This document shows, piece after piece, positions 6,631 through 33,920 of a stretch of DNA of 64,000 bases (its first letter is position 1; each line of letters starts with the position of its first letter). The position numbers were made by a program, and so were the translations under genes. Source of the stretch: Halorussus halophilus (GTDB lineage: Archaea > Halobacteriota > Halobacteria > Halobacteriales > Haladaptataceae). The notes below the pieces were generated by a model. That model did not search any database and was not told the DNA's origin. It worked only from the letters and a program-made list of their open reading frames with translations. The DNA is taken from positions 1 through 64,000 of the forward strand of contig NZ_CP044525.1 in assembly GCF_008831545.1 (NCBI RefSeq), given 5' to 3'.

Positions 6631-6694
6631 TGTTGGATTTCAGCTAGCAGTGATATCTGTCGGTCGTTGTGCTACTGTTCTACCGTTCACGTCG

Positions 6695-8479: not shown

Positions 8480-8764
8480 ACTGACGTCGAATGACTACAA
8501 TTGTCGGGGCTACAAAGGTTGTGGGCAATATTTGAAACACCTCACAAGACTTGTGAACCGCCTGTAGAGCGAACGATAGGCAACGCACACCGATACTCGG
8601 TCGATTTCGGTTTCGAAACTACGCGTGTCCGCCTGACTCACTTCACGAAACGAAATACAGATTCGATAGGTCCCTAGTCTCCAAGCAAGAACTCAGGTAT
8701 ACCCTCATCACGTACTGAAACACAGATTGATGGACCGAATAGACCGTGAGGAGGTGGTGTACCA

Positions 8765-9550
8765 GTGACGATCAATTGGGTGACGACGGGGGTATCTGCG
8801 GTCGTCATTCTGGTCGCGTCCGTCGTACACGGAATCGCTGGGTTTGGCTTCGCGCAGGTTTCGATGGGACTGATGCCACTGTTCCGATCACCGTCTAGTG
8901 CGTCGATTATCTTCACAGCGACGGCAGTCGTGAGCAACGCCCGTGTCTGGTGGAGTGTCCGAGACGCGTTCGACTGGCAGAAGTGGATTGTCCCCGTCGG
9001 GGGACTCGTCGTCGGAATGCCACTGGGAATCTACGTGTTCAGCCAGTTCAACAAGGCACAGATGCGCGTCGCCATCGGGGCGGTCCTCGTGCTCGCAGTC
9101 ATCATCGTCGGTGCGACCCAACAACTTGACGTCGTCACGGACTGGATCGAAGCACGGGACTACCGCCCGGGGAATCTCGTCGGCGCGACGGCTGGACTCT
9201 TTGCCGGGATATTCGGCGGGGCAGTTGCAGTTCCCGGCCCGCCGATGATCATCTACGGGGCGTTCATGTCCGCCAGCGGGTTCTGGAGCGATGAAGAGAT
9301 GAAGGCGACGTTCACCGCCTTCTTTGGGACGCTCATGCTGTACCGACTCGGCAGTCTCACCTACACGGGAACGGTGACGACGCCGCTCATGATCGAAGCC
9401 CTCGTCGCAATCCCGATGGTGTTCGTTGGCGCGTGGATCGGGGTCTATATCTTCGACAACATCCCTGAACGCGTCTTCCAATGGGTCGTGCTGATACTAC
9501 TGACCGTGAACGCGTTCGTCCTACTGTTCACAGCCATCCCACAACTCTAA
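8765..9550 (+). CDS. TSUP (TauE/SafE) family exporter (1)
   Basis: 261-residue membrane protein with about eight hydrophobic segments and paired family motifs (HGIAGFGFAQV near the start, AGIFGGAVAVPGPPMIIYG in the middle). TSUP proteins move sulfite, sulfonates or other organosulfur anions. The GTG at 8765 is the only start that keeps the first membrane helix. It diverges from the SoxB-like gene with 285 bases between, which fits sulfite export after sulfane-sulfur oxidation. Substrate is inferred from context. Confidence 0.85.
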   Translation: MTINWVTTGVSAVVILVASVVHGIAGFGFAQVSMGLMPLFRSPSSASIIFTATAVVSNARVWWSVRDAFDWQKWIVPVGGLVVGMPLGIYVFSQFNKAQMRVAIGAVLVLAVIIVGATQQLDVVTDWIEARDYRPGNLVGATAGLFAGIFGGAVAVPGPPMIIYGAFMSASGFWSDEEMKATFTAFFGTLMLYRLGSLTYTGTVTTPLMIEALVAIPMVFVGAWIGVYIFDNIPERVFQWVVLILLTVNAFVLLFTAIPQL

Positions 9551-9598
9551 GGGATGGTTGGCAAACGGTTTAATTCTGCATCGGTAACGGACCAGTTA

Positions 9599-10093
9599 AT
9601 GGCAAAAAGATGGACCCGGCGAAATGCTCTTCGGTCACTTGGGACTATTGGAACTCTTAGTATTGCAGGCTGTCTTGGTTCGTCGAACGGACAGTCCTGG
9701 GATATCAAGGAAAACCTCGCTGTCACTAATGCCCAGCAGTACAATTCGCCCGGCTGTGGTTGCTGCAAACAGTATGCATCGTACTTTCGGGAAAACGCCG
9801 ACGGGAAGCTTACCGAGACCGTCCCTGATGATATTTATAGGATTAAGAGAAAGCACAACATTCCTCAAAAGCTACAAGGCTGTCACACACTTGTCTTGGA
9901 TGACTACTTCGTCGAAGGTCATGTCCCTCTAGAAGTTGTGTCGAAACTCCGCACGGAAACACCCGATATCGATGGAGTCGCTCTCCCAGGAATGCCAGCA
10001 GGATCTCCTGGAATGGGCGGTGAGAAACGTCGTGAATTTGTCGTTTACGCAATCGGCGGTGAGCAAGGAACTGAAAAGTACATGACAATCTAA
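9599..10093 (+). CDS. DUF411 metal-binding Tat lipoprotein
   Basis: About 164 residues. The twin-arginine signal (RWTRRNALRSLG) ends in a lipobox (LSIAGC), so it should be lipid-anchored outside the cell. The mature part carries the DUF411 signature PGCGCCKQYA plus later GCHTLVLDDYFVEGHVP. DUF411 proteins occur next to copper efflux genes and probably bind copper with the CxCC cluster. Start 9599 is chosen over 9554 because TTTAATT about 25 bases upstream looks like a TATA box and would give a leaderless transcript. It is followed by the remains of copZ. Confidence 0.85.
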   Translation: MAKRWTRRNALRSLGTIGTLSIAGCLGSSNGQSWDIKENLAVTNAQQYNSPGCGCCKQYASYFRENADGKLTETVPDDIYRIKRKHNIPQKLQGCHTLVLDDYFVEGHVPLEVVSKLRTETPDIDGVALPGMPAGSPGMGGEKRREFVVYAIGGEQGTEKYMTI

Positions 10094-10492: not shown

Positions 10493-11737
10493 GTGGAATA
10501 CCGGCGAACCGCCGTCATCAAACTCGACACGTCCTCGGACGACGATTCAGCACTCCGAGAGACGGTCGAACAATTCAAACACTGTGCCAACCGCGCAAGC
10601 GAGTGGTGCTGGCACGGCGACGACGGCTACCACGTCACCTCGAAAGCCAAAGCCGAACGCGCCCTCTACGACTCACTCCGTGACGAAACCGACCTGACCG
10701 CGAATCTCGTTCAGAAAGGGATTCGCAGGGCAGTCGAAGCCGTCAAGAGTGGTGTCGAACGACTCAAACGTGGCGAAAGTACGTCGAAGCCATACTTCTC
10801 GGCGGACAGCGCGGTGTATGACAAGCGGTCTGCGACGTTCCACCGCGACCACGTATCGCTGTCCACCGTAAATGGGCGCGTTGAGTGCGATTACATTCTT
10901 CCCGACGACCCGGAGAAACCGCCGACCAAGTACGTCTCCGACGACGATTTCGAGTTTCGAATGGCCTCTCTCCAGTACCGCGACGGTGACTGGTATCTCC
11001 ACGCCTCCATGCGAAAAGTCGAAGCAGACGAGGAGTCGTCTGAACCGGACACCAAGCACAGAACAGTCCTTGGTGTGGATTTAGGTGTCAACAACCTCGC
11101 CGTCGCTTCGACCGGGCAGTTCTGGTCGGCAGACGAGTTCAACCACTGGCGTCGAGAGTACGAGAAACGTCGTGGGTTGCTCCAACAGTGTGGCTCTCGC
11201 CACGCCCACGATAACATCGAATCCGTTGGGCGAAAAGAGACTGGCCGGTTCGAGATGCACCTTCACAGGGTAGCAAACGAACTTCTTGAAGAAGCGGTCG
11301 AGAACGACTGTTCGCACATCGTCTTCGAGAACTTGACCCACATTAGGGAGAACGTCCCTGAAGCGACGTGGCAACACGTTTGGGCGTTCAGACGCCTCTA
11401 CGAGTACGTCGAGTACAAGGCTGAGGAGTACGGTCTGAACGTCGAGCAAGTTCCGCCGGAGAATACGTCGAAGCGGTGTTCGACGTGTGGGTTTACGCAC
11501 GGTAACAATCGGTCGGGAGAGTCGTTCGAGTGTCAGAAATGCGGGTATGAGAACCACGCGGACTACAACGCGAGCAAGAATATCGGCTTTCGGTATCTCC
11601 GTCGTCGGCAAAACGCAGACGATGGAGGCGCACCCGTAGGTGTTGCGCTAAATCGCGGGACGTTGAACGTGAGTGGCGAGTATTCGCCCGCCAGCGATGG
11701 TCAGAACGGGAGTCCACGCGAAAGCCCACGACTTTAG
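10493..11737 (+). CDS. tnpB: TnpB RNA-guided nuclease, element 1
   Basis: 414-residue TnpB with GTG start. The RuvC-like catalytic triad is visible: D in LGVDLGVNNLAV, E in IVFENLTHI, and D in ENHADYNASKNIG. A CxxC...CxxC zinc finger (CSTCGFTH...CQKCGYE) lies between the second and third motifs. TnpB uses an ωRNA from its own 3' end to cut the empty donor site and promote retention of the element. All key residues are present, so it is probably active. The C terminus runs into the right-end hairpin. The protein is about half identical to the second TnpB at 36180. Confidence 0.95.
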   Translation: MEYRRTAVIKLDTSSDDDSALRETVEQFKHCANRASEWCWHGDDGYHVTSKAKAERALYDSLRDETDLTANLVQKGIRRAVEAVKSGVERLKRGESTSKPYFSADSAVYDKRSATFHRDHVSLSTVNGRVECDYILPDDPEKPPTKYVSDDDFEFRMASLQYRDGDWYLHASMRKVEADEESSEPDTKHRTVLGVDLGVNNLAVASTGQFWSADEFNHWRREYEKRRGLLQQCGSRHAHDNIESVGRKETGRFEMHLHRVANELLEEAVENDCSHIVFENLTHIRENVPEATWQHVWAFRRLYEYVEYKAEEYGLNVEQVPPENTSKRCSTCGFTHGNNRSGESFECQKCGYENHADYNASKNIGFRYLRRRQNADDGGAPVGVALNRGTLNVSGEYSPASDGQNGSPRESPRL

Positions 11738-11752
11738 TCGTGGGTTACTTAC
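11640..11752 (+). ncRNA. Probable ωRNA 3' region of TnpB element 1
   Basis: The final tnpB codons and right end contain a stable stem-loop (11725-11744: CCCACGAC, TTTA loop, GTCGTGGG). In characterised TnpB systems the ωRNA scaffold overlaps this part, and the guide is the flanking host sequence just past the right end, here starting CTGTTATCG in copZ. The 5' boundary is arbitrary. Confidence 0.6.
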
Positions 11753-12013
11753 CTGTTATCGATGCAGTTTCTGCCTCGCGGTCGGCAGTCGCCGATGACA
11801 CGCCCGATACGTCTTCGAGTGCCTCTTCCACGGTCTGTTCGCAGTGTTCACAGGTCATTCCTTCGACAACGATTGTTTTGCTCATACGCGTTATAGTACG
11901 AGAGGCTACTCTTTCTGACTTATTCCTTGATTCTCAAATCATATTTGGGATCACACCTTCATTACAAAAGCAATTATCGGTGGTGTCTTAGTAGTTGGCG
12001 CACAAGCATCTGT

Positions 12014-22005: not shown

Positions 22006-22941
22006 TCACCCGAGAAAAGCGCTTCTAGGAAGATACCCGAACGAGCGAAGCGAATACCCCGTTACGTAGAGACCGATCAGAACGAAGGACACACTCCCGA
22101 CGAGGCGGGCCTTTCGGCCGTATCGACCGAGTGGCAGCGTCTCTCCTGTAACACGTGCGGCGATACTAACACCAAGGACGAGCGTCCCCATCCCGGCCGC
22201 GAACGCTCCGAATACAGCGAGACCATCGACGAAGCCGTGCGTCGTGAACGACGTGAGCACCATCCCCAAGAAGACCGGGAGGTTACAGGCGAGACTTCCA
22301 ATTCCGTAGACGATACCGAAGACGACGAACGCAGGAATCGTTGATCCATCTCGCTCAGGAAGTTGAACCGACTGCAACGGAGAGACATCGTAGTAGTACA
22401 TGATACCGAGTCCGATGAGCAACGGTCCGACTAGAAGTTCGAGCGAGACTAGATACGGTTCGATCCAGTGACCCAGAGCGAGGATGAACCCACCGATTAG
22501 CAGATACACCGAAACCACACCGAACGTAACGAATCCACCGACGCGAAGTCCATCGAGGACCGCTCGTTTACCGAGTGCACTCACCATGAGAACGGTACCG
22601 ACGACGGTGACGGCGACGGGCGGAAAGTAGCTTCCAGACCCTAACTTGGCAAGTGGCACAATGACGTGGTATCCTGGGAGCAGGACGCGAATGCCAGCTA
22701 CAGCCATGTAGAAAAGCGGAATTGCGCCAAGTAGAAAGACGAGAAACCCGTTGACGAGTAATACGGTTTGAGTGAGACGAAACGAACTCGAATTCGACTG
22801 TTCGTGTCGAAGGGCTTCGTTCTCGCGCGTGTAGAAATACGAGAGATACGCCGGGAGGAGTCCGACACTACAGGGTGCAAAGAACATCAAGACGCCTGCA
22901 GCGTACGCTGCAACGAGTACTGATGATGACGATAATGGCAT
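22006..22941 (-). CDS. ccdA: CcdA/DsbD-family thiol-disulfide transporter (1)
   Basis: 311 residues with eight or more helices. FFAPCSVGLLPAYLSYF and GIGSLACNLPVFLGM each carry one conserved Cys near a Pro, the CcdA arrangement that moves electrons from cytoplasmic thioredoxin to extracytoplasmic thiol proteins. It is the last gene of a minus-strand operon (dsbA, CASCG protein, ccdA) with overlaps or gaps of a few bases. It probably keeps apocytochrome cysteines or the Ccm thioredoxin reduced. Confidence 0.9.
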   Translation of the reverse strand: MPLSSSSVLVAAYAAGVLMFFAPCSVGLLPAYLSYFYTRENEALRHEQSNSSSFRLTQTVLLVNGFLVFLLGAIPLFYMAVAGIRVLLPGYHVIVPLAKLGSGSYFPPVAVTVVGTVLMVSALGKRAVLDGLRVGGFVTFGVVSVYLLIGGFILALGHWIEPYLVSLELLVGPLLIGLGIMYYYDVSPLQSVQLPERDGSTIPAFVVFGIVYGIGSLACNLPVFLGMVLTSFTTHGFVDGLAVFGAFAAGMGTLVLGVSIAARVTGETLPLGRYGRKARLVGSVSFVLIGLYVTGYSLRSFGYLPRSAFLG

Positions 22942-22944
22942 CGC

Positions 22945-23490
22945 TTACTCTCCTCCGTTCGTCACGCTACGCCGACAGTAGCGTGGGTCGCCAGCACGAG
23001 CGAGATATGCTAGTAGGAGCAAGAGACCGCCAGCGCGTAACAGATTTCCGTGGAATGGCAGTGCCGCCATTGCTCCGGCGAACCCGAGCAGACCGAGAAC
23101 GCCAGCACCACAACTCGCACACCCCGATGCGAGTAGCCCAGGAACAGCACTCGACAATCCCTTGCTGCCGGATAGTCCGGCGCGTGCAACCCGTCCCATC
23201 GCGTTCGTTATCGCGATACCAGTGACGATTGCGTACGCAACGATTAGTCCCAACCCGAGTGCGCCAACGGTCGTGTACGTGTTTGCAGTTAAGGCAATCA
23301 CGGTGTCATCGAAATACTGGGGTCCGGCGTTGAGCATCTGGAACGAGTATTCCGGGAACGTACTCAGAACAAGGAGGATGTAGGTTGCGACAGAGAATCC
23401 GGCGAAAAGGAGACTCCGGGAGAGCGTCGTCACTGGATAGACGAAAGCTGCCACGAGCTGTTCGCTATGACGTTCGAGACGGTGTGTCAT
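22945..23490 (-). CDS. Membrane protein with CASCG motif
   Basis: 181 residues with about four hydrophobic segments. VPGLLASGCASCGAGVLGLLGFAG puts a CxxC pair next to a glycine-rich helix, much like the CPTC protein at 21492. Its ATG overlaps the stop of dsbA and its stop lies 3 bases before ccdA, so all three are coupled. Likely a partner in disulfide exchange. The family is unnamed to me. Confidence 0.75.
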   Translation of the reverse strand: MTHRLERHSEQLVAAFVYPVTTLSRSLLFAGFSVATYILLVLSTFPEYSFQMLNAGPQYFDDTVIALTANTYTTVGALGLGLIVAYAIVTGIAITNAMGRVARAGLSGSKGLSSAVPGLLASGCASCGAGVLGLLGFAGAMAALPFHGNLLRAGGLLLLLAYLARAGDPRYCRRSVTNGGE

Positions 23491-24227
23491 CCGGCGTTTT
23501 GCACCTGTTTGAACGCCTCTTTGAAGCGGCCATACGGTTGCGCGCCGACGAGCTTTCCGGCGGCGTCTGCATCACGATTATACAGAATGAACGCAGGTGT
23601 TCCCCGGATTCCGAATTGTGATGCTTTGTTCATGTCTTCGTTTATCGATGACTCAATCTCGGAACGGTGGTTTTCCATGCACGTTTTGACGGCACTTGCG
23701 TCCACGCCCTCGACGCCGCGCGTTATTTCTAACAGATTACTCTTCGAAGCCCAGCCAGACCCTTTCGACTCCTGTTCGTCGTAGAGCGTCGAATGCCACC
23801 GCAGGTACGTGTCGGGCGAGGAGTCTCGTACCTGCCGCCAGACGCATTTGTCCATCACTGCAGCAGTCATCGAATTGTCGCTGAGGTATGGAAACTCGAT
23901 GAAGACGACGCGAACGGTGCCGGTTTTGACGTAATTCTCGATGATTTTTGGGAACGCGTTCTGTTCGAATCGACGACAGAAGGGACACTGGTAATCGCTC
24001 CAGTAGTACATATCGATAGGTGCGTCTAGGTCCCCCATGATGGGGTGGCCCTGGAGGTTGATGTCGAATCCCGTGGTTTTCGAACTCTGCTGAAATTGGC
24101 CGGTCGTCGATGCAGACGACTCGGAGTCGAGTTGTGATGCCCCATAGACGACCCCGCCGCCTGCTGCGAGCGTGCCGATTCCACCGAGCACGGCACGACG
24201 TGTTGTGATCGTGTCTGGCAAGTCCAT
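23487..24227 (-). CDS. DsbA-family thiol oxidoreductase, Tat exported
   Basis: 246 residues. A Tat signal (TTRRAVLGGIGTLAAGGG) precedes a DsbA/thioredoxin fold with the active site in YWSDYQCPFCRRFEQ and the cis-Pro in GIRGTPAFILYN. It should form or isomerise disulfides outside the membrane. It heads an operon with the CASCG protein and CcdA, and it diverges from ccmEAB, consistent with control of the redox state of heme-binding cysteines. Confidence 0.9.
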   Translation of the reverse strand: MDLPDTITTRRAVLGGIGTLAAGGGVVYGASQLDSESSASTTGQFQQSSKTTGFDINLQGHPIMGDLDAPIDMYYWSDYQCPFCRRFEQNAFPKIIENYVKTGTVRVVFIEFPYLSDNSMTAAVMDKCVWRQVRDSSPDTYLRWHSTLYDEQESKGSGWASKSNLLEITRGVEGVDASAVKTCMENHRSEIESSINEDMNKASQFGIRGTPAFILYNRDADAAGKLVGAQPYGRFKEAFKQVQNAG

Positions 24228-24393: not shown

Positions 24394-24765
24394 GTGCGAC
24401 GGAAAAACAAGCTTCTCTTCGTTGGCGTCGGCATCATCGTACTCCTCGGTGGAGTCGGAGCTACTACGATGAGCGCCACGACAGAGTTCGTCACGCCGAC
24501 GAACCTTGCTCACGAAGACTATCAAGGTGAATGGGTGAACCTCGAAGGGTCTGTGAGGAATCTCGACACGTCGGGGACGAAGACTACCTTCGACGTGACC
24601 GACGGCAACGCCACGATCGAAGTAGTGTACGATAAACCGCTTCCCGAAACCTTACAGAACGGTCGAATCGTCGTGGCAAAAGGTGAGTATCGGAACGGGA
24701 AGTTAGTGGCTAACAAGCTCTCCGTCCGAGCCCACGAAGGTAGCGACAACAAGAACGAGCGATGA
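24394..24765 (+). CDS. ccmE: CcmE-like heme chaperone
   Basis: 123 residues from GTG 24394. A TM anchor (LLFVGVGIIVLLGGVGAT) is followed by an OB-fold domain (NLEGSVRNLD, FDVTDGNATIEVVYDKPLPETLQNG, VVAKGEYRNGKLVANKLSV). His114 in RAHEGSD aligns with the heme-binding His of bacterial CcmE (KHDENY), while the usual Tyr four residues later is absent. CcmE takes heme from CcmC and passes it to CcmF for attachment to CxxCH. Its stop overlaps the ccmA start by 4 bases. Confidence 0.85.
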   Translation: MRRKNKLLFVGVGIIVLLGGVGATTMSATTEFVTPTNLAHEDYQGEWVNLEGSVRNLDTSGTKTTFDVTDGNATIEVVYDKPLPETLQNGRIVVAKGEYRNGKLVANKLSVRAHEGSDNKNER

Positions 24766-25526
24766 CGGCGAAGACGTCTCCAGTTGCGGAGCAAGAACCG
24801 CTAGCGATTCGGACAGTGGACCTGACGAAGGAGTACGGGCAGTTCGTTTCGGTCGATAGCCTCTCGGTCGAAATCGAACGAGGGGAAACCGTCGGTCTCT
24901 TCGGACCGAATGGTGCGGGGAAAACGACGTTTCTCCGGATGCTAGCTGGTCTTACACGACCGACGAGAGGGACCGTCTCGATCCACGGCACCGAATTCGA
25001 ACTCGACAATCAGCGACTCCGCGAACGAATCGGCGTCGTCACACACGATTCGATGCTCTACGACGAACTAACGGCGCGCGAGAACCTCCACTTTCACGCC
25101 AACTTACACGGACTCAGTTCAGTCACTCGACAGACCGAAGAAGTTCTCGAAACGGTCGGCCTCACCAGTCGCGCAAGTCGTCGCCCACCCGAATTCTCTC
25201 ACGGACTCCGGAAACGACTCGCACTCGGGAGAGCCCTCCTCCACGACCCAGACCTGCTGTTGCTCGACGAACCGTACACTGGACTCGACCAGCGCGCCGG
25301 TGCTGACTTCTCGGCCGCGCTGAACGACCTGACGGAGAAGACCATCGTCCTGACCACACACGGGTTAGAACGCGGCCTGAGCCACTGTTCACGAGCACTC
25401 GTACTCGATTCCGGGCGACTCGAAGCCGACTTTTCGACGACATCGCTTTCGAGTGAGGAGTTCGAAGAACGGTACCGAGAGACAATTGGACTGCCATCGG
25501 AGGAGACGACAGTCGAACACGAATGA
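24762..25526 (+). CDS. ccmA: CcmA-like heme ABC exporter ATPase
   Basis: 254 residues. Walker A GPNGAGKTTF, signature-like FSHGLRKRLALGRAL, Walker B LLLLDEPYTGLD, and H-loop TTHG. Within ABC ATPases the ccmEAB gene order identifies it as CcmA, which with CcmB and CcmC releases holo-CcmE by ATP hydrolysis. Overlaps of 4 bases on both sides give tight coupling. Cytoplasmic side of the membrane. Confidence 0.9.
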   Translation: MTAKTSPVAEQEPLAIRTVDLTKEYGQFVSVDSLSVEIERGETVGLFGPNGAGKTTFLRMLAGLTRPTRGTVSIHGTEFELDNQRLRERIGVVTHDSMLYDELTARENLHFHANLHGLSSVTRQTEEVLETVGLTSRASRRPPEFSHGLRKRLALGRALLHDPDLLLLDEPYTGLDQRAGADFSAALNDLTEKTIVLTTHGLERGLSHCSRALVLDSGRLEADFSTTSLSSEEFEERYRETIGLPSEETTVEHE

Positions 25527-26197
25527 GCGATTTTCTCTCTGCCATCTATCACGTCGTCAGGAAAGACCTGATAATCGAGATACGGACGAAACAAGTGACG
25601 ACGACGGCCACAGTGTTCTCGTTGTTAGTCGTCATCACGTTCGCCTTTAGTTTCGTCCAGACGTTCGCCAACCCACGAATCGTGGGACGAAGCGCGCTCT
25701 GGATCGCGTTCGTGTTCGCCGGTACGCTCGGAGTCACGAAGACGGTCGGTATCGAAGCACGGAACGCCGCACTCGACGGTCTATTGCTTGCACCCGTCGA
25801 CAGGTCGGCCATCTACGTCGGGAAAGTTCTTAGCACGGCGTTCTTCGTCATCATCGTAGACGTAGTGACACTCGCTGCTGCGGTAGTCTTCCTCGGGTAC
25901 GCACCCACTCCGACCACACTAGTTTCGCTTGTTGGCGTGCTCGTCGTCGCAGCGTTCGGATTCGCTGCCGTCGCAGTCGTCGTTTCGACGCTCACTCATC
26001 GGTCGACGCTGGACGAACTCGTTCTCCCGGTACTTCTCGTGCCGCTCGTGGTGCCAGTGCTTCTTGCTGGCGTCGAGATAACAGATGCACTATCGTCGGG
26101 CCGTCCGACGACGACGTGGTTACAACTACTGTGTTCGTACACGGGAATTCTCTTTCTCGCCGGAATAGCTGTCTTCGACTACGTCGTCGAAGAGTGA
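25523..26197 (+). CDS. ccmB: CcmB-like heme exporter permease
   Basis: 224 residues with six hydrophobic segments. The start VRKDLIIEIRTKQ is typical of CcmB, and a conserved middle reads VGIEARNAALDGLLLAPVDRSAIYVGK. It pairs with CcmA. It ends 17 bases before the convergent secreted protein gene at 26215. Confidence 0.9.
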   Translation: MSDFLSAIYHVVRKDLIIEIRTKQVTTTATVFSLLVVITFAFSFVQTFANPRIVGRSALWIAFVFAGTLGVTKTVGIEARNAALDGLLLAPVDRSAIYVGKVLSTAFFVIIVDVVTLAAAVVFLGYAPTPTTLVSLVGVLVVAAFGFAAVAVVVSTLTHRSTLDELVLPVLLVPLVVPVLLAGVEITDALSSGRPTTTWLQLLCSYTGILFLAGIAVFDYVVEE

Positions 26198-26214
26198 GTC
26201 AAAATCTGATTCGA

Positions 26215-27405
26215 CTACAAGACTCGATACGCGACGAACCCACCACCGACGATAGCGACTAACCCACCTAACAGCGGGATGGCAGGGAACGTCGGCATCG
26301 AGTTACTCTCCGCAGACGCCTGTTCAGCATCGTTGGTTCCAGACCCCGACGTGTTCGGGGCAGTGAGTTCGAGTCGAACTGTGTCGCCGTTCGTTATCGG
26401 TTCCGTGTTCGTCAGAAGGGGAATCGGTGAGTCGCCGACTTCCAAGTTCGCAGAGTGGTTCACCTTCTTTGGTTCGTATCCTCTGAGAACGACCGCGACC
26501 GTGGTGGAGTTGTGACCGAACGTCTTCTTGAACGTCCGTCCGTTGATATCGTAGGCGACCCCGATGCGGGCCGAACTGTTGGCCGGGACCGTGACGTTGA
26601 TTTCGACGCCACGACTGGTTTGACGATAACTCGTCTGTCGCCCTTGGAACATCGCCGAGTAAGGTTTCGACCCATTGGGCGTGACGACGGTAACTGTCCC
26701 GACGTACGGACGGTCACCCGTGTTTCGGAGCGTGAGCGTCTCGACTACGGTCGGCGACTGTGACGCATTCTGCGGTGCAAGCACCTGCAGGACGTGGTTC
26801 GCTGGGTTCCCACCGGAAACGTTCAACACCGACTTGTCGTCGGTTGGTGGCGGCGTCTCGATAGTGACAGTCGAAGTCTCGGAGGTGTTGATGGTACGCA
26901 GGTAGGGCACGCCGTCTGCAACGACCTGAATCCGATACGACTGATTCGACTGGAGCGGTCCGAACTCGAACGTCCCGCTCTGGCCGACCTTCGTCCGGTC
27001 CACCGAGTAGCCCGTCCCACTAACGAGTTGGACGGTGGCGTTCGTTCGAGGTTCGCCCGTCTCGTTCACGACGGTCCCCGAGAGCGACCGATTGAGTCGC
27101 ATCGATACGGCGGTCTCGTTACGGAGAACTTCCGAGTGGACTGCACCGTCGTGGACGACCTCGACGAGGTACAACGGTGCGTCTGGCACGTCCGCAGAGA
27201 ACTGCTTGCCATCGACAGTCGTCCGGACCGGGTCGTCCATCTTCTTGAACCCTTGCGTCATCGGCGTCACGGTGACGTTCGCGCCGTCAGCAGTTCCGTT
27301 TTCGACCGTAACTGTACCGTTGACGGTCGTCGTCGCACCGACGACGGTGGCGAAGGCGATACTGGCGAGGACGAGTCCGAGTACGAGTGTTGTTTTTCGT
27401 AGCAT
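26215..27405 (-). CDS. Secreted, C-terminally anchored protein cotranscribed with ccmF
   Basis: 396 residues. A Sec signal (TLVLGLVLASIAFATVVGA) is followed by carboxypeptidase-regulatory-like β domains (NGTVTVENGTADGANVTV; GTVVNETGEPRTNATVQL), an NEW3-like β segment (ETLTLRNTGDRPYVGTV), a low-complexity Ser/Thr stalk and a C-terminal TM helix (PAIPLLGGLVAIVGGGFVAY). No cysteine or enzyme motif is visible. The gene starts 8 bases after ccmF, so it is in the cytochrome c maturation operon. It might hold apocytochrome outside the cell, a job CcmH/CcmI does in bacteria; this is inferred from position only. Confidence 0.75.
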   Translation of the reverse strand: MLRKTTLVLGLVLASIAFATVVGATTTVNGTVTVENGTADGANVTVTPMTQGFKKMDDPVRTTVDGKQFSADVPDAPLYLVEVVHDGAVHSEVLRNETAVSMRLNRSLSGTVVNETGEPRTNATVQLVSGTGYSVDRTKVGQSGTFEFGPLQSNQSYRIQVVADGVPYLRTINTSETSTVTIETPPPTDDKSVLNVSGGNPANHVLQVLAPQNASQSPTVVETLTLRNTGDRPYVGTVTVVTPNGSKPYSAMFQGRQTSYRQTSRGVEINVTVPANSSARIGVAYDINGRTFKKTFGHNSTTVAVVLRGYEPKKVNHSANLEVGDSPIPLLTNTEPITNGDTVRLELTAPNTSGSGTNDAEQASAESNSMPTFPAIPLLGGLVAIVGGGFVAYRVL

Positions 27406-27413
27406 TATGTTCG

Positions 27414-29816
27414 TTAGTCAGATGGTTCGGTGTCTGTACTGGCCGCATTCTCGGAACCCCTAGTACGTACGTTCGATCGAACCCCGTGTGCGGGGTCGTA
27501 GAGTAGGACGAGTGACATCCCCACGAGGAGCATGAGGATTGCGAGTCGCATGACTGTCATCATGGGAATCCGCTTAACCGTAACCGAAGCAGTTCCATCG
27601 CTAACGCCGACGATGACGTAGGTGTCAGAGATCAATCCTCGGTCGATGATGACGTCACGAACCTGCATACCGCCCTGTTGGACGTAGCGACGCTGGCCCG
27701 CAACCCCACTCGTCACCTCGTTCCCACCGCGATAGACCGCCATCGAGACGCCTTTCGCCTTGACTCGCGTCGGGACGACGCTCTCCGGTGGCGATTGCAC
27801 CGACCCCATCATCGAGGGACGAGAGAGAACCATCGCATCGGCACTCGGCACGAAGTCCCACATGAGCCGACCCTTGGCGACGATGCGCTGTCCCTGCTGG
27901 ACCGACACGCTAGACTCGTTCGCGTTCGGGAGGCCGACCCAGACGCTCGAATTATCGATTTGTACGACCGTAGCCCGCTGGCCTTGTCGGACGTTCGTCA
28001 CCGTGCCGTACACGGTCTGGACCGTCCCGTTGAGTGACTCACCCCGTGAGATTATATTTCGCGGCGAGAGCGCGTACGACTCGACTGCAGGATTTCGTGG
28101 GAACTCAGAACTCGAATACCCGAGAACGCGAATCGAGTAATCGGTGCCCGCAATCGGTTTTTTGGACGAATCGACTGCACCGCTTCCGATGCCCGTCGCC
28201 ATGACCGACGCTTGCCCGCCGAGGAGATACATGAGCGGCAGTGAGAGAACGAGGAGCGCGACCCCGATGTGGATGGTCGTGATACCCGTCTCCTTGAGTT
28301 TCGCGTGCCGTCCGGCGGCCGCAGGAATTCGAACCGACGCGCGCTTTAGCATACTGAGGCAGACGTACGCAACCGGTGGGAGGACCGCCAACGCGCTCAC
28401 GCTCCCGATGATAGTGTAGAAGAACGAACCGCTCGGCGAGGTCGAAGCGAGTCGCCACGCGTCCGAGGGTGCAACGAACGCGGCTACGACTGTCCCGGCC
28501 GTGAAGACGCCCAGACCGACGAGGCTACGACGGCGATCCTCGACGTCGAAGTCCATGTAGAATCCGAGCAGTAGCATAGTGGCGATGACGAACGGGAAAC
28601 TCCAGAGGTTGTAGTATCGTGGTTCGACTGAGACCTCGATACTAGTTATTGCGTCCCTGAGGACTGGGAACGTCAGCCCCCAGAGCGAGACGAACGTCAA
28701 TAGTCCGAGGAGGAGAACGGCACCGTGCAGGAGGTTCGACCGCGTAATCCACTCCCCGTCGCGTTGCCGTTCGTCGCCGTCCTGGAAAAGCCAGTAGCCG
28801 AACGGAATGATGACACCGAGGACCACTGTGATCCCCATCAACACGAGGAGCGAGACGCCGATACCACCGGACGCGAACGAGTGAATGCTTCGAAAGACTC
28901 CGCTCCGGACGACCGACGTGGTGTAGACGGCCAGCGCGAACGTCGTCGCGGTCATCGCCGGAGCCAGAATCTGGTAGTCCCCATTGGGGCGGTACCGCGT
29001 TACCGCGTGAAGTGTCGCAGTGAGGAACAACCACGGAATCAAAATCGCAGTTTCGACTGGGTCCCACGCCCAGATGCCACCCCATCCGAGGACTGTGTAC
29101 GACCAGAGACCGCCGAGTGCGACGGCGGCGGTCAGGAACAGCCAACTCAATCGTAGCCAGCGGGTGACACTTCCGATCCACGTCGAGAAGAGGCCGCCAT
29201 TCCCACGAAGCAGCGATATGAAGTGTGCTGCACCGATGGCGAACGGCATCGTAAGGAGTGCGTAGGACGCGAACATGACCGGTGGGTGAATCGCCATGTA
29301 TGGGTCCACGAGGAGCGGGTTCAGCCCCTGTCCGCTCGTCGGAACGTACCCCGCAGGAGCGTTGGGGAACTCATTCCCGACCGGTGCGAAGGGACTCCTG
29401 AGCAACAGCATTCCGGTGAAGTACGTGACGATACCGACCGTAAGCGCCTGCACGAGTTTCCCACCACGACTGTCTATTCCACGGAAGAGCACGGCGGCGA
29501 GTGCGACGAACGAGACGATGGTCGCCCATAGGAGGATGGACCCTTCATTACCCGCGTAGACGCCAGTCAAGCGGTAGAGTAACCCGAGATAGTCGGCCGT
29601 ATTGTGCCAGACGTACGCGTTCGAGTAGTCGGTCCTGACGAACTGGTACGTGAGATGCAAAAGCGCACTCGATAAGAGGACGACGGCACCCCCGAGCAGT
29701 GGTTTCACGTAGTCTAGATACTGGTCGTTGTCTGCGACGTATCCTCTCGTGAGGATAGCCGTCGTGGAGACCAATGCGAGAAACGCTAGCAGTAGGATGA
29801 TTGTCCCGGGCGTCAT
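27414..29816 (-). CDS. ccmF: CcmF-like cytochrome c heme lyase
   Basis: 800-residue membrane protein. The WWD-type heme-handling loop is GWGGIWAWDPVETAILIPWL, and other conserved pieces include GNEGSILLWA and ATLHAVTRYR. A large extracytoplasmic β domain follows about residue 570 (AGTDYSIRVLGYSS..., OB-like; GTVTNVRQGQRATVV). This late part resembles a CcmE-type OB fold and may be a built-in acceptor. CcmF joins heme vinyl groups to CxxCH cysteines. Its ATG overlaps the thioredoxin stop by 4 bases. Confidence 0.92.
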   Translation of the reverse strand: MTPGTIILLLAFLALVSTTAILTRGYVADNDQYLDYVKPLLGGAVVLLSSALLHLTYQFVRTDYSNAYVWHNTADYLGLLYRLTGVYAGNEGSILLWATIVSFVALAAVLFRGIDSRGGKLVQALTVGIVTYFTGMLLLRSPFAPVGNEFPNAPAGYVPTSGQGLNPLLVDPYMAIHPPVMFASYALLTMPFAIGAAHFISLLRGNGGLFSTWIGSVTRWLRLSWLFLTAAVALGGLWSYTVLGWGGIWAWDPVETAILIPWLFLTATLHAVTRYRPNGDYQILAPAMTATTFALAVYTTSVVRSGVFRSIHSFASGGIGVSLLVLMGITVVLGVIIPFGYWLFQDGDERQRDGEWITRSNLLHGAVLLLGLLTFVSLWGLTFPVLRDAITSIEVSVEPRYYNLWSFPFVIATMLLLGFYMDFDVEDRRRSLVGLGVFTAGTVVAAFVAPSDAWRLASTSPSGSFFYTIIGSVSALAVLPPVAYVCLSMLKRASVRIPAAAGRHAKLKETGITTIHIGVALLVLSLPLMYLLGGQASVMATGIGSGAVDSSKKPIAGTDYSIRVLGYSSSEFPRNPAVESYALSPRNIISRGESLNGTVQTVYGTVTNVRQGQRATVVQIDNSSVWVGLPNANESSVSVQQGQRIVAKGRLMWDFVPSADAMVLSRPSMMGSVQSPPESVVPTRVKAKGVSMAVYRGGNEVTSGVAGQRRYVQQGGMQVRDVIIDRGLISDTYVIVGVSDGTASVTVKRIPMMTVMRLAILMLLVGMSLVLLYDPAHGVRSNVRTRGSENAASTDTEPSD

Positions 29817-30319
29817 TTGGTCCCACCTCCGTTCGTCGTATTAGCGCCGTTCGATTTCTGTTTCGCGCGTTCGAGATAGGCGAGGAAGTCCTGTTTGGGC
29901 GCGTATCCCGAGATGCGGGTCAGCACCTCACCATCCGGTGTGATAATGACGTGCTGTGGTGGGTAGTTGACGTTGTACTTCTGCTTCAGACGGGACGGTT
30001 CGCGCGCATCGCTGTCGAGGTTGACTGCGACTAAGACGAAATCGTCGAGACTAGATTGGACCGCAGGGTCAGAGTAGACGTTGCGGTTGTAGTCTTCACA
30101 GTAGGTGCACCACGTCGTCCAGAAGTAGACGACGATGGGCTTGTCCTTTTGCTCAGCTACCTGTTCAGCTTGCGAAAAATCGGTTCGCCATTTCGTATCG
30201 CCGTGGTAGGAGTACTTTTCGTCGCTCAACACCGGTGCTGCGTGCATCGAGAGATATCCGATTCCCAGAAGTAGCGCGAAGAACGCGAGGGTAGACGCTT
30301 TCCGCGGAGTTATCGGCAT
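29813..30319 (-). CDS. Membrane-anchored thioredoxin (CcmG/TlpA-like)
   Basis: 168 residues from ATG 30319. An N-terminal TM helix (TLAFFALLLGIGYLSMHA) precedes a thioredoxin domain with active site YFWTTWCTYCEDYNR and cis-Pro NYPPQHVII. It should act outside the membrane to reduce apocytochrome cysteines before heme attachment, fed by CcdA. It is the first gene of a minus-strand operon with ccmF and the anchored β protein. Confidence 0.88.
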   Translation of the reverse strand: MPITPRKASTLAFFALLLGIGYLSMHAAPVLSDEKYSYHGDTKWRTDFSQAEQVAEQKDKPIVVYFWTTWCTYCEDYNRNVYSDPAVQSSLDDFVLVAVNLDSDAREPSRLKQKYNVNYPPQHVIITPDGEVLTRISGYAPKQDFLAYLERAKQKSNGANTTNGGGTK

Positions 30320-30702
30320 GACTCTCAGTATACGACCACCGCTGCAAAAGTGTACTGCATCTCCACTACTGGTCAATTTTCTCTTGTGGATTCGTTTTCG
30401 TGGTGAGATAGATTCATTATCTATTAGTTATTCGAACAGAAGAATAGGTACGGGCGAGAGGCCAGATCAATCAAATCGGCCGTAATACAGCTATTTCGTG
30501 CGAATAAGCAGGGGTGGTGGCGGCTCTACTACATATCATCTTCAATCAGTTATGTTATCGGCGGGGTTACGTTCTTCACATCACCTAATTCCTACGCAGA
30601 GCTATGAAAATGTTTATCACAGTAGTGGGAGTATTGGTCAATATCGTTTGAAGACCAAGTGTGGAATGAAATGGTAGGAGAAGAGATGGAACAAGACGAA
30701 AC
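30320..30702. other. Divergent promoter region between ccmG-like and tsdA-like genes
   Basis: About 380 bases, AT-rich at 30400-30560. No gene is supported. It holds TATTGGTCAATA at 30632-30643 upstream of the cytochrome gene. The promoter for the minus-strand thioredoxin-ccmF operon must also be here. Confidence 0.5.
30632..30643. promoter_or_regulatory. TATTG-N2-CAATA operator upstream of tsdA-like gene
   Basis: TATTGGTCAATA is a perfect 5-base inverted repeat with a 2-base centre, 59 bases before the start codon. The same arms recur upstream of the HTH regulator, thioredoxin and TSUP unit. Confidence 0.55.
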
Positions 30703-32115
30703 ATGAGTCAAGGCGATTCAACGTTATTACTCAAGCCGGTACTCCTCATAGTTAGCGTCGCCGTCATGGCGGTCGTGGTCACACTCGCAGTCAACGGACT
30801 GCTCGCGTTCACGGGCAACGACTACATGAGTGGCCAACCAGCCGCAGAATCGGGCGGCGGCGGTGGCGGTATCCTGGACTTACCCGGCGAATGGAGCGGT
30901 TACGAGTGGTATAGTGAGGACCTCCGAGAGGATGGTATGAAATACAAGAACGAAACGGCTGGTAACAAGGTCAACTTCCAGCCGAAGAAAATGAACAACT
31001 CGACACTCCCGGAGAACGAGAATCGCCGGGAACTCGTCAAGTACGGACGTCGGCTCTTCGCTAACACGTCCAAACTGATGCCTGGGTACACGGGCGGCAC
31101 CCGCATGTCGTGTGCGAACTGTCACGGCGGTGGGTCGCTCCCGACGACGACTGGCATGGTCGGCCAAGACATCGACATGATTCCGCTCGTCGGCACCGCC
31201 TCGGGGTATCCCGAATGGACGGGTCGTACCCAGCGGATGCGCGACATGCGCCAGCGAATCATGGGTTGCTTCCTCCGGAGCATGGACGCAGCCAACGCCG
31301 AGAAGGGCGTCCCAGCCTACGACAGCAGAGAAATCCAGGCCATGGAGACCTACATGGTCTGGCTGAACAAGGGAACGCCGAGCCAAAAAGTGCCCTACTG
31401 GCGACACATCGAGAAGCCGGAAGGTAACGAGAAGAAGCCCGTTCCGGAAGTGAACCCGGTGCGCGGCGCAAAACTCTACCTCGAGAATTGTGCGTCCTGT
31501 CACGGCAAGGACGGCCAAGGGAAGAAAGGTCAGTACCCACCACTGTGGGGCCCGAACTCCTTCAACGACGGTGCCGGGATGGGCCGACTGTACACCTCGG
31601 CAGGCTTCATCCGCGAAGCGATGCCATACGGTACCGCACACTCGTTCAAAGACTGGGACGACGTCCAAGACGTCGCCGGGTTCATGAACGCACACAAGCG
31701 GCCGCACCTTCCACGCCAACCCAAAGACTGGGAGGAAGCAGGCGTGAAGAAAGAAGGCATCTACTACAAACGCGCTCAGGAGCACTGGGGTTACGACATG
31801 AATCCCATGACGAAGAAGCTCCTCATCGCTGGCATCCCAATCGGGAGCCAACCGATAAACAAGAGCGTGATTCCCGAGGACTACTCGAAGTACGACGACC
31901 CGATGAAGAACACCTCGGTCGAGGGGTCGTGGAAGACGACGTGGATGAACAAGTCCAACACGTACGCCAACTGGAAGTACGCAGAGGATTCAGGTAGTTC
32001 AAACAACTCGACGCAGACGAACAGTTCGGCGTCGCTGACCGTTCGAGGTGCCGTAACCGACGCGATGGCTAACGGCGACTCGACCGCAAAAGCACGAGAG
32101 AATCAAGCGAGCTGA
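30703..32115 (+). CDS. tsdA: Membrane-anchored diheme cytochrome c, TsdA-like thiosulfate dehydrogenase
   Basis: 470 residues. A TM anchor (residues 10-36) is followed by two class I cytochrome c domains with CANCH (C137-H141) and CASCH (C263-H267). RIMGCFLRSM (Cys189) matches the TsdA segment whose Cys is the unusual axial ligand of heme 1. LWGPNSFNDGAGMGRLYTSAGFIREAMPYG matches the TsdA heme 2 domain. TsdA couples two thiosulfates into tetrathionate and passes electrons onward; here halocyanin is a likely acceptor. A Ser/Asn-rich tail of about 90 residues after the second heme domain (after about 380) is extra. It is followed by ccdA, ccmC and ccmD on the same strand. Confidence 0.88.
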   Translation: MSQGDSTLLLKPVLLIVSVAVMAVVVTLAVNGLLAFTGNDYMSGQPAAESGGGGGGILDLPGEWSGYEWYSEDLREDGMKYKNETAGNKVNFQPKKMNNSTLPENENRRELVKYGRRLFANTSKLMPGYTGGTRMSCANCHGGGSLPTTTGMVGQDIDMIPLVGTASGYPEWTGRTQRMRDMRQRIMGCFLRSMDAANAEKGVPAYDSREIQAMETYMVWLNKGTPSQKVPYWRHIEKPEGNEKKPVPEVNPVRGAKLYLENCASCHGKDGQGKKGQYPPLWGPNSFNDGAGMGRLYTSAGFIREAMPYGTAHSFKDWDDVQDVAGFMNAHKRPHLPRQPKDWEEAGVKKEGIYYKRAQEHWGYDMNPMTKKLLIAGIPIGSQPINKSVIPEDYSKYDDPMKNTSVEGSWKTTWMNKSNTYANWKYAEDSGSSNNSTQTNSSASLTVRGAVTDAMANGDSTAKARENQAS

Positions 32116-32142
32116 ACTCGAACGGTACACAATTTTTCGAAT

Positions 32143-32835
32143 ATGGCAGGCGTCCCGACGACTGCTGCGGTGTTCCTTGCTGGCATCGTGACGATACTGA
32201 CACCATGCTGTCTCCCGATGATTCCCGTGCTTGTAGTCGGCGGTACCGGGCATCGACTGCGACCAGTTGCAATCGTCTCCGGAAGTACGCTGATGTTCAC
32301 GATTCTCGGCGTTGCGACGGGGATGATCGGCGCGCTCACGCCGGACGACATTCGGGCGCCGTTCGCTATTCTCATGGTGGCGTTCGGTGCGGTTATGGCC
32401 GACGACGACCTCAACGAAATATACTCTCGGTACACGAGGAAGTTCGTCAGTAGCGCGAATTCCGCAACCGGGGTTGTAGATGAAGAACGCCATCCGTTGG
32501 CGAATGCGTTCGTCGTCGGATTGCTACTCGGAGTTATCTGGCTGCCATGCGTCGGTCCTGTCCTCGGCGGTGTCCTTGCATTCGTCGGGACGACCGGAGA
32601 CATCACACAGAGCGCGTTACTTCTGTTCACGTACGGCGTCGGATTCTCGATTCCCCTGTTGGGCGTCGCGTACGCGACCAAGTTCGGTGGCCGTCAGGTG
32701 CTCGGTCCCGTCCTCGACGATGGCCTCACCGAACACGTCCAGACGATAACCGGGTACAGCTTCGTCGCCTTCGGCGTGGCGATGCTGTTTGGACTGGACA
32801 AACTAGCACTCGCATCACTTATCGAACTACTCTAA
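32143..32835 (+). CDS. CcdA-family protein (2), short
   Basis: 230 residues, six helices. ILTPCCLPMIPVLVVGG and GVIWLPCVGPVLGGVLAF are the paired Cys-Pro motifs of CcdA, with a charged cytoplasmic loop at about residues 85-120. It starts 27 bases after the cytochrome gene, so the two probably share an mRNA. It likely delivers reductant for maturation of that cytochrome. It is a different subfamily from the CcdA at 22006. Confidence 0.88.
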   Translation: MAGVPTTAAVFLAGIVTILTPCCLPMIPVLVVGGTGHRLRPVAIVSGSTLMFTILGVATGMIGALTPDDIRAPFAILMVAFGAVMADDDLNEIYSRYTRKFVSSANSATGVVDEERHPLANAFVVGLLLGVIWLPCVGPVLGGVLAFVGTTGDITQSALLLFTYGVGFSIPLLGVAYATKFGGRQVLGPVLDDGLTEHVQTITGYSFVAFGVAMLFGLDKLALASLIELL

Positions 32836-32893
32836 GAATGATACACAAAGATAACACGACGATGACACGGAGAATCGGCAGAGAAATACGACA

Positions 32894-33619
32894 ATGATGG
32901 GGTTCAGTAACGTACTCAGTCGTCTCATGCGAGCTTTGCGATGGCTCGTCGAGAGTAGAGGCGTCAAGTGGGGAACGCTCGTCACGGGCGTCGTCTCGAT
33001 GGGACTGGTGTTCGGCGTCGCATCCGATACGATGTATGGAATCGAACACGGTGCTAACTTGCTGGCGTATTGGCACATCGCACTCGCGTGGGTCGCCGCC
33101 GCCGCGCTCGCGACGACGTTTTTCGGGAGTGCGTTGTATCTCCGCTATCGTGGACGGTTCTGGAACCGCCTTGCACACAGTGCCGGTGAAATCGGCTTCA
33201 TGTTTGCGACACTGACGCTGGTCTTGGGAAGCATGTGGGGGAAGGTTATCTGGAACTCGTGGTGGGAGTGGACCGACGTTCGACTAGTGACGTTTCTGCT
33301 CGTCTGGTTCATTTACGCGGGCTACCTCATCGTATACTCCGCGACCGAACGAAGTAACGACGAACTGTACGCAGCAGTGTACGGCGTCATCGGCTTCGTG
33401 ACGGTACCCATCTCGTATCTATCCACTCGTCTTTGGATTCCGACGTTCCACGAAACCACTGTCGGGAACCCACAGGTCAGTGCCAACATCGACCCGCTCA
33501 CGCTCGTCGTCTCGGTGATTGCAGCGACGTTCCTCTACTTCTACCTCGTCGGTCTTCGCATCAATCTTCACGAACTGGAAGACAAAGTACTTCGACTCCA
33601 CGCACCAAGGAGGGACTAA
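32894..33619 (+). CDS. ccmC: CcmC-like heme-delivery protein
   Basis: 241 residues with six helices. The WWD heme loop appears as SMWGKVIWNSWWEWTDVRL, and conserved histidines flank it (YWHIALAW; IPTFHETT). CcmC loads heme onto CcmE. It lies between ccdA and a 39-aa ccmD-like frame in one plus-strand operon led by the cytochrome gene. An in-frame ATG one codon later (32897) is equivalent. Confidence 0.92.
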   Translation: MMGFSNVLSRLMRALRWLVESRGVKWGTLVTGVVSMGLVFGVASDTMYGIEHGANLLAYWHIALAWVAAAALATTFFGSALYLRYRGRFWNRLAHSAGEIGFMFATLTLVLGSMWGKVIWNSWWEWTDVRLVTFLLVWFIYAGYLIVYSATERSNDELYAAVYGVIGFVTVPISYLSTRLWIPTFHETTVGNPQVSANIDPLTLVVSVIAATFLYFYLVGLRINLHELEDKVLRLHAPRRD

Positions 33620-33622
33620 CGA

Positions 33623-33742
33623 ATGGAACCACTACTCCTCGCCGGATACACGGCATTGTTCGTCGCGTTCTTTGGCTACGTCGTCCACTTGCAACGGCGT
33701 ATGAGCAAAGTAGAATCCCGGGTGGCGGACCTCCGCGATTGA
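33623..33742 (+). CDS. ccmD: CcmD-like small membrane protein, 39 aa
   Basis: A short frame beginning MEPLLLAGYTALFVAFFGYV, one TM helix, then a basic, helical tail (HLQRRMSKVESRVADLRD). Size, topology and location 3 bases after ccmC match CcmD, the small subunit that helps release holo-CcmE from CcmABC. CcmD sequences are poorly conserved, so the call depends on context. Confidence 0.75.
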   Translation: MEPLLLAGYTALFVAFFGYVVHLQRRMSKVESRVADLRD

Positions 33743-33901
33743 GGCCCGTCGCCGACGAACTCGAACAGATACGGACACCCACCCACCGGCTAAATTCCAT
33801 TTGCTTCTAGTCGAATCATTTTGCTGAGTTGTCACGCTAATCGTGTAGTATGGGGGCGCAGCCTCGCTTGAAAGACAGTTTCCCATAGTTTTATCACAAC
33901 C

Positions 33902-33915
33902 CTACAATATTGTAG
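33902..33915. promoter_or_regulatory. 14-bp perfect palindrome before the halocyanin gene
   Basis: CTACAATATTGTAG ends 5 bases before the halocyanin start codon. It contains CAATA and TATTG arms in the reverse order to the other operators. A protein bound here would sit at the transcription start. Confidence 0.45.
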
Positions 33916-33920
33916 TTCGT

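Follow-up and report, generated by a model that had tools for sequence, protein, structure and literature searches.

Does a haloarchaeon keep an apparatus for attaching heme on behalf of one cytochrome? The question is raised by a stretch of Halorussus halophilus DNA (NZ_CP044525.1, positions 1–64,000, here called the window; the contig is 219 kb within a 4.45-Mb genome) in which cytochrome c maturation (Ccm) genes surround the gene for a diheme cytochrome of the thiosulfate dehydrogenase (TsdA) type. The answer offered here is that the locus is very probably a mobile, self-contained cassette that makes a single product, TsdA, and attaches its hemes by means of a haloarchaeal variant of System I. 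The kind of cassette is already known; the variant of the System I machinery apparently has not been reported.

A maturation cassette around one cytochrome

Genes were identified by profile searches (Pfam and NCBIfam/TIGR) of the window proteins and, for TsdA, by phmmer. The cassette extends from 24394 to 34592 and is arranged as three transcription units: ccmE-A-B on the + strand (24394–26197), thioredoxin-ccmF-Ig protein on the - strand (30376–26215), and tsdA-ccdA-ccmC-ccmD-halocyanin on the + strand (30703–34592).

24394..24765, + strand: ccmE, heme chaperone, 123 residues, GTG start, no cysteine (PF03100, E = 4.2e-12; translation)
24762..25526, + strand: ccmA, ABC ATPase (TIGR01189, 133.1 bits, just above the cut-off of 131.6)
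25523..26197, + strand: ccmB, ABC permease (PF03379, E = 9.2e-21)
26215..27405, - strand: Ig-domain protein with signal peptide, C-terminal membrane anchor and CarboxypepD_reg domain (PF13620), 8 nt behind ccmF
27414..29816, - strand: ccmF, heme lyase, 800 residues (PF01578, 4e-25; CcmF_C PF16327, 2e-9)
29813..30319, - strand: thioredoxin-like protein (WCTYC), probable CcmG substitute (PF13098, E = 2.6e-15; DsbD-C), overlapping the ccmF start
30703..32115, + strand: tsdA, membrane-anchored diheme cytochrome c of the thiosulfate dehydrogenase type (phmmer 2e-35 to TsdA structures; PF21342, PF00034)
32143..32835, + strand: ccdA, transmembrane thiol reductase (PF02683, E = 2.2e-19)
32894..33619, + strand: ccmC, heme delivery to CcmE, His61 and His186 conserved (TIGR01191, E = 8.8e-23; conservation)
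33623..33742, + strand: ccmD, 39 residues (TIGR04391, 27.8 bits, cut-off 24)
33921..34592, + strand: halocyanin with Tat (twin-arginine translocation) signal and C-terminal anchor, likely TsdA electron acceptor (TIGR03102, E = 1.7e-39; TIGR01409)

The first-pass annotation of this DNA had recognized ccmE-A-B, ccmF, ccmC, the 39-residue ccmD, ccdA and the diheme cytochrome, all of which lie where it had put them, with the maturation genes assigned to Ccm families by profile searches. It overlooked the Ig-like membrane protein (26215–27405), the CcmE motif, the CcmC loop and the OB insert of CcmF. The protein that it called CcmG-like (29813–30376; the open reading frame (ORF) extends to 30376, with a likely start at the ATG at 30319) is a thioredoxin and not a CcmG. 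The nearest match is the DsbD C-terminal domain, and DsbE/CcmG is matched at 19.8 bits against a cut-off of 123; nothing in the H. halophilus genome exceeds the cut-off of the CcmG profile TIGR00385, where the cassette thioredoxin reaches 16–20 bits. As for the two CcdA proteins and the DsbA that it had included, the ccdA at 32143–32835 stands, while the DsbA and the second CcdA-like protein lie outside the span it delimited and are found beside only 3 of 40 relatives. Neither CcmH nor CcmI had been seen, and the searches agree: PF03918 (CcmH) matches none of 391 haloarchaeal genomes, in a search that detected its positive controls, and TIGR03142 (CcmI) has no match in the H. halophilus genome. 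Set against canonical System I, the locus holds CcmABC with CcmE and CcmF (WWD, conserved His) and a CcmD beside CcmC, and lacks HxxxY in CcmE, CcmH/CcmI and CcmG.

Searches of the H. halophilus genome with four cytochrome families turned up no further clear c-type cytochrome, which supports the annotated picture of a System I-type set around a single TsdA-type diheme cytochrome. Beyond this genome, 391 haloarchaeal genomes were surveyed and gene order was compared at 40 loci of up to 20 kb each. CcmE occurs in 40 of the 391, which bears out the claim that a Ccm set is unusual in haloarchaea, and the TsdA domain occurs in 26, every one of which (26/26) is also a CcmE genome. If genomes were independent, this overlap would have a chance probability of about 1e-30; related genomes are not independent. 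Gene order is conserved at 24/40 loci, each with a TsdA cassette of the same three units. The Ig-domain protein is present at 24/40 loci, each with TsdA, and is missing from the other type of cassette. In most of the remaining loci, the ccm genes surround a different two-CxxCH protein with the spacing of a MauG-type diheme peroxidase, and no Ig protein is present.

The phylogeny of CcmF places TsdA-type and other cassettes in separate supported clades inside one haloarchaeal group, itself nested in archaeal CcmF and apart from the sampled bacterial sequences. TsdA distances correlate with those of CcmF, CcmE, CcmB and CcmC (r = 0.85–0.94), with CcmF at r = 0.94, a pattern that joint movement of the whole cassette would produce. 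CcmE is absent from all seven genomes of the same genus, and the contig bearing the window measures 219 kb, so horizontal gain of the cassette is likely.

From the gene content, motifs, co-occurrence and phylogeny observed we infer the following scheme of heme attachment, electron flow and catalysis. CcmAB together with CcmC/CcmD would charge CcmE with heme on the outer side of the membrane, and CcmF would pass it on, without CcmH and CcmI, to both CxxCH sites in TsdA. CcdA would hand electrons to the thioredoxin, which would keep the CxxCH thiols reduced. Mature TsdA would convert two thiosulfates to tetrathionate at a Cys-ligated heme, and the electrons would leave by way of the Met-ligated heme to halocyanin. 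The variant parts are a putative CcmE heme His shifted outward by one residue and lacking the Tyr, a longer CcmC WWD loop, a retained CcmD, and the OB domain of CcmF. With cassettes that are compact and hold one cytochrome each, haloarchaea could become a model in which to study CcmH-free heme attachment.

The CcmE motif and its partners

24727..24735, + strand: CcmE [RK][AS]H motif, codons Arg112-Ala113-His114 (59/59 haloarchaeal CcmE; alignment with CxxxY and HxxxY types)
27801..28091, - strand: OB-fold domain in CcmF, about residues 576–672 (strands in model; Foldseek OB-fold matches)
33236..33286, + strand: CcmC WWD motif WGKVIWNSWWEWTDVRL, with the extra residue Thr127 (33272–33274) before Asp (E. 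coli CcmC alignment; 57/57 haloarchaea)

The most distinctive part of the machinery is CcmE. All 59 haloarchaeal CcmE sequences have the motif [RK][AS]H; the motif region contains neither a Cys nor a Tyr at +4, and none has the bacterial heme-binding motif HxxxY. Among other Halobacteriota from the CcmE search, CxxxY is found at 68 of 70 loci. A conserved strand Ala provides a ruler: in 65 of the 68 CxxxY proteins the Cys follows it by seven residues, as His130 does in E. coli, and in 59/59 haloarchaeal sequences the His follows by eight, so the haloarchaeal His lies one residue further out. A multiple alignment agrees in placing it one residue past the usual ligand position.

Archaeal CcmE has been described as universally Cys-type (PMC9084895, a 2022 study) and as having a Cys in all cases (PMC3601427, a 2011 review), statements that the haloarchaea contradict. 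A literature search that lay outside Allen et al. 2006 found no description of the haloarchaeal type; the abstract of that paper reportedly gives Cys for 'most' archaeal CcmE, and the haloarchaeal exception may have been seen there. The heme-release Tyr is almost entirely conserved elsewhere, with about 3% Phe (PMC6204919). A whole class of CcmE without this Tyr therefore offers a natural test of the heme-release model.

A third CcmE chemistry may be proposed tentatively, at slightly less than even credence, with heme on a His one past the known His/Cys site, without the release Tyr, and matched by the longer CcmC WWD loop. If true, the ligand switch at handover from CcmC would have to differ from the one suggested for E. 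coli, in which P-His2 is exchanged for Tyr134. The alternative is that the variant CcmE is not a covalent heme chaperone, either passing heme non-covalently or being vestigial. The protein has neither Cys nor Tyr and its His is out of register; moreover, an extra Ala in the motif region of E. coli CcmE is reported to abolish heme attachment (PMC3601427), and haloarchaeal CcmE holds an extra Ala at the matching place. On the other hand, [RK][AS]H is kept in 59/59 sequences from many genera and both types of cassette, whereas the tail that follows is not conserved, ccmE is present in every cassette, CcmC retains the equivalents of its heme-ligand histidines, and the Tyr is dispensable in E. coli CcmE (PMC3601427). 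A non-covalent or vestigial CcmE appears unlikely, though not remote.

The heme-contacting WWD loop of CcmC has one extra residue before the Asp in 57/57 haloarchaea, and HMMER also gives an insertion relative to E. coli CcmC. The small ORF behind ccmC is a CcmD, with TIGR04391 matching 10/10 haloarchaeal sequences sampled, and the public annotation of Halobacterium noricense has a 'CcmD family protein'. These findings contradict the reported absence of CcmD from archaea (PMC9084895).

CcmF carries the motif WGGxWAWDP, and an alignment of 47 archaeal CcmF sequences shows four of its histidines (177, 270, 312 and 516) to be invariant. The model has a predicted local distance difference test score (pLDDT) of 86 and a predicted template modelling score (pTM) of 0.85, and matches Thermus CcmF (PDB 6zmq, TM 0.83) apart from the OB insert, which is predicted to sit in the extracytoplasmic domain. 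A profile of the insert detects long archaeal CcmF and none of the sampled bacterial CcmF. Against 24,074 ORFs, a ccm-rich set, its best non-CcmF matches are nearly all CcmE (E from 6e-6); the nearest OB folds in the PDB are tRNA-synthetase domains. Given the weak profile comparisons, homology between the CcmE OB fold and the CcmF insert is not claimed as proven. On the tentative reading of a third CcmE chemistry, the long archaeal CcmF with its OB domain would do without CcmH.

A thioredoxin gene lies directly before the long CcmF in 53/57 loci (45 by script and 8 with overlapping extended frames). Both the long CcmF with OB insert and the upstream thioredoxin gene are common to Methanoperedens and Hydrothermarchaeota (L186–L202, L163–L173), so the pairing is archaeal and not haloarchaeal. 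Argoarchaeum has a long CcmF without the thioredoxin gene.

The Ig-domain protein was considered as a CcmI substitute. Its model (pLDDT = 82) consists of beta domains and a C-terminal helix, and its position fits; the fold search returned generic Ig/pilin-like structures with low TM-scores, and the protein does not occur in cassettes of the other type. In a Methanosarcinales genome, a homologue (L187, 1–1578) is encoded close to ccmF and ccmE; it ends in an additional charged C-terminal tail.

Several points weigh against a dedicated cassette with a shifted heme ligand. In genome G037, about 160 kb separate tsdA (C1:2174597) from a Ccm set (C1:2338238) that belongs to the other type and may mature TsdA there. 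Dedication is thus not absolute: the annotated 'dedicated' set holds in the H. halophilus genome and fails as a strict rule. A pairwise HMMER alignment sets His114 of CcmE on E. coli His130 with no nearby gap; the one-residue shift accordingly rests on the multiple alignment and the strand spacing. In one bacterium (L209, Acidimicrobiia), a CcmC whose WWD loop is longer by one residue (FWDWGDARL) occurs together with a normal HxxxY CcmE, so a compensation between the CcmE and CcmC shifts is offered as a hypothesis only. Finally, no published experiment on heme attachment by the cassette, TsdA activity or CcmE heme binding was found for any haloarchaeon.

TsdA and its probable reaction

31111..31125, + strand: heme 1 CxxCH of TsdA, Cys137-His141 (invariant 38/38)
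31267..31269, + strand: TsdA Cys189, equivalent of the active-site heme-ligating Cys (invariant 38/38; alignment)
31489..31503, + strand: heme 2 CxxCH of TsdA, Cys263-His267 (invariant 38/38)
31621..31623, + strand: TsdA Met307, heme 2 ligand equivalent (Met 38/38; preceding residue Ala/Ser, not Lys)

The cytochrome aligns to Allochromatium vinosum TsdA across both domains (phmmer 2e-35), with a SoxA-like N-terminal domain (PF21342), a class I cytochrome domain (PF00034) and two CxxCH motifs. In 38 of 38 TsdA sequences both CxxCH motifs, the active-site Cys189 and the heme 2 Met307 are invariant. These ligands are shared with the A. vinosum and Campylobacter jejuni enzymes; a membrane anchor and a C-terminal extension of about 130 residues set the haloarchaeal protein apart from them. 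The nearest named relatives are Halorussus and Halomicrococcus. A complete cassette is present in 'Natronorubrum thiooxidans' HArc (locus L155), whose source paper names thiosulfate-to-tetrathionate oxidation in its title. This supports the thiosulfate-to-tetrathionate reaction in N. thiooxidans and, by orthology, would support it in H. halophilus.

The opposite direction, with TsdA acting mainly as a tetrathionate reductase, is rather unlikely. It is suggested by the position of Lys208, the A. vinosum residue that alternates with Met at heme 2: the 38 sequences have Ala (34) or Ser (4) there, so that Met remains, as it does in the C. jejuni enzyme, which is biased toward reduction and has Asn254 at this position (PMC5146829). 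However, mutating the Asn position in C. jejuni TsdA did not decide the direction of the reaction, and oxidation is favored by the neighbors (a sulfur dioxygenase-like protein, halocyanin and a multicopper oxidase) and by the N. thiooxidans phenotype. The halocyanin gene adjoins tsdA in several relatives.

It is improbable that the cytochrome is instead a SoxA-like part of a Sox pathway, with the Ccm set serving that pathway together with the SoxB-like protein at 6695–8479. The cytochrome does match TIGR04484 (SoxA, 2e-11), and the SoxB-like protein, 22 kb off, matches TIGR04486 at 1.7e-62, yet its 211 bits fall short of the cut-off (550). The SoxA match is also under its cut-off, TsdA structures match far better and over both domains, and SoxY and SoxZ were not found in the H. 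halophilus genome by searches that had no positive control. Lastly, a degraded or silent remnant may be dismissed as extremely improbable, in spite of the TnpB-type transposase genes (IS605 OrfB) nearby at 10493–11737 and 36180–37466, since all frames are open, the catalytic residues are all present and the order is kept in distant families.

Comparison with known systems and flanking genes

The suggestion of an undescribed system does not survive comparison with Kletzin et al. 2015 (PMC4429474), who reported that in five haloarchaea thiosulfate dehydrogenase homologues (cluster 28) and ccm genes are arranged much like an operon, and that other haloarchaea have ccm genes together with cytochromes of the MauG type. 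They describe archaea as lacking CcmH except for Ferroglobus, tracing the missing CcmH of archaeal System I to Allen et al. 2006. The locus described there thus shares with the present one a TsdA-like diheme cytochrome, the ccm neighborhood and the lack of CcmH. Kletzin et al. surveyed CcmB, C, E, F and H and list Haloferax volcanii as having no ccm genes; the parts of their paper used here do not discuss the CcmE motif, CcmD, the CcmC loop, the OB insert, the Ig-domain protein, the thioredoxin-CcmF pairing or the 1:1 distribution. What is described here is a distinct haloarchaeal System I variant within a real, conserved and previously noticed cassette, and it deserves testing.

The Ccm system of Methanosarcina acetivorans (PMC9084895) has the same CcmABCEF core without CcmH/CcmI and an archaeal CcmF lineage. 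There, CcmE carries heme on the Cys of CxxxY and CcmF is split in two, whereas haloarchaea have a CcmE without Cys, a CcmD and a one-piece CcmF. System I* (Desulfovibrio type; PMC3601427) can likewise work without CcmH or CcmG; however, it is defined by a Cys-type CcmE, which the haloarchaeal cassette lacks. With E. coli System I the cassette has in common CcmA–F homologues, a His near the C-terminal motif of CcmE, and WWD domains. It differs in having no HxxxY and no CcmH/CcmI, a thioredoxin replacing CcmG, a longer CcmC WWD loop, and the CcmF OB insert.

Among the 40 loci, one has multiheme proteins: haloarchaeal Ccm locus L072 (genome G346), where frames 6589–8412 and 10921–11829 have 8 and 4 CxxCH motifs. 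For haloarchaea, Kletzin et al. 2015 (PMC4429474) had reported no cytochromes of the multiheme kind.

Accessory thiol genes lie outside the conserved cassette:

22006..24227, - strand: DsbA-like protein (23487–24227), small membrane protein (22945–23490) and CcdA-like protein (22006–22941)

The last of these matches the CcdA1 profile weakly and has no match in Pfam or NCBIfam. Sulfur-metabolism genes flank the cassette at 5482–10093 and 37875–42574 of the window. They encode the SoxB-like protein (below the curated cut-off), DsrE2, a sulfur transport domain protein and two TauE-type exporters. Two proteins in the flanks that combine rhodanese and metallo-beta-lactamase parts resemble sulfur dioxygenase fusions.

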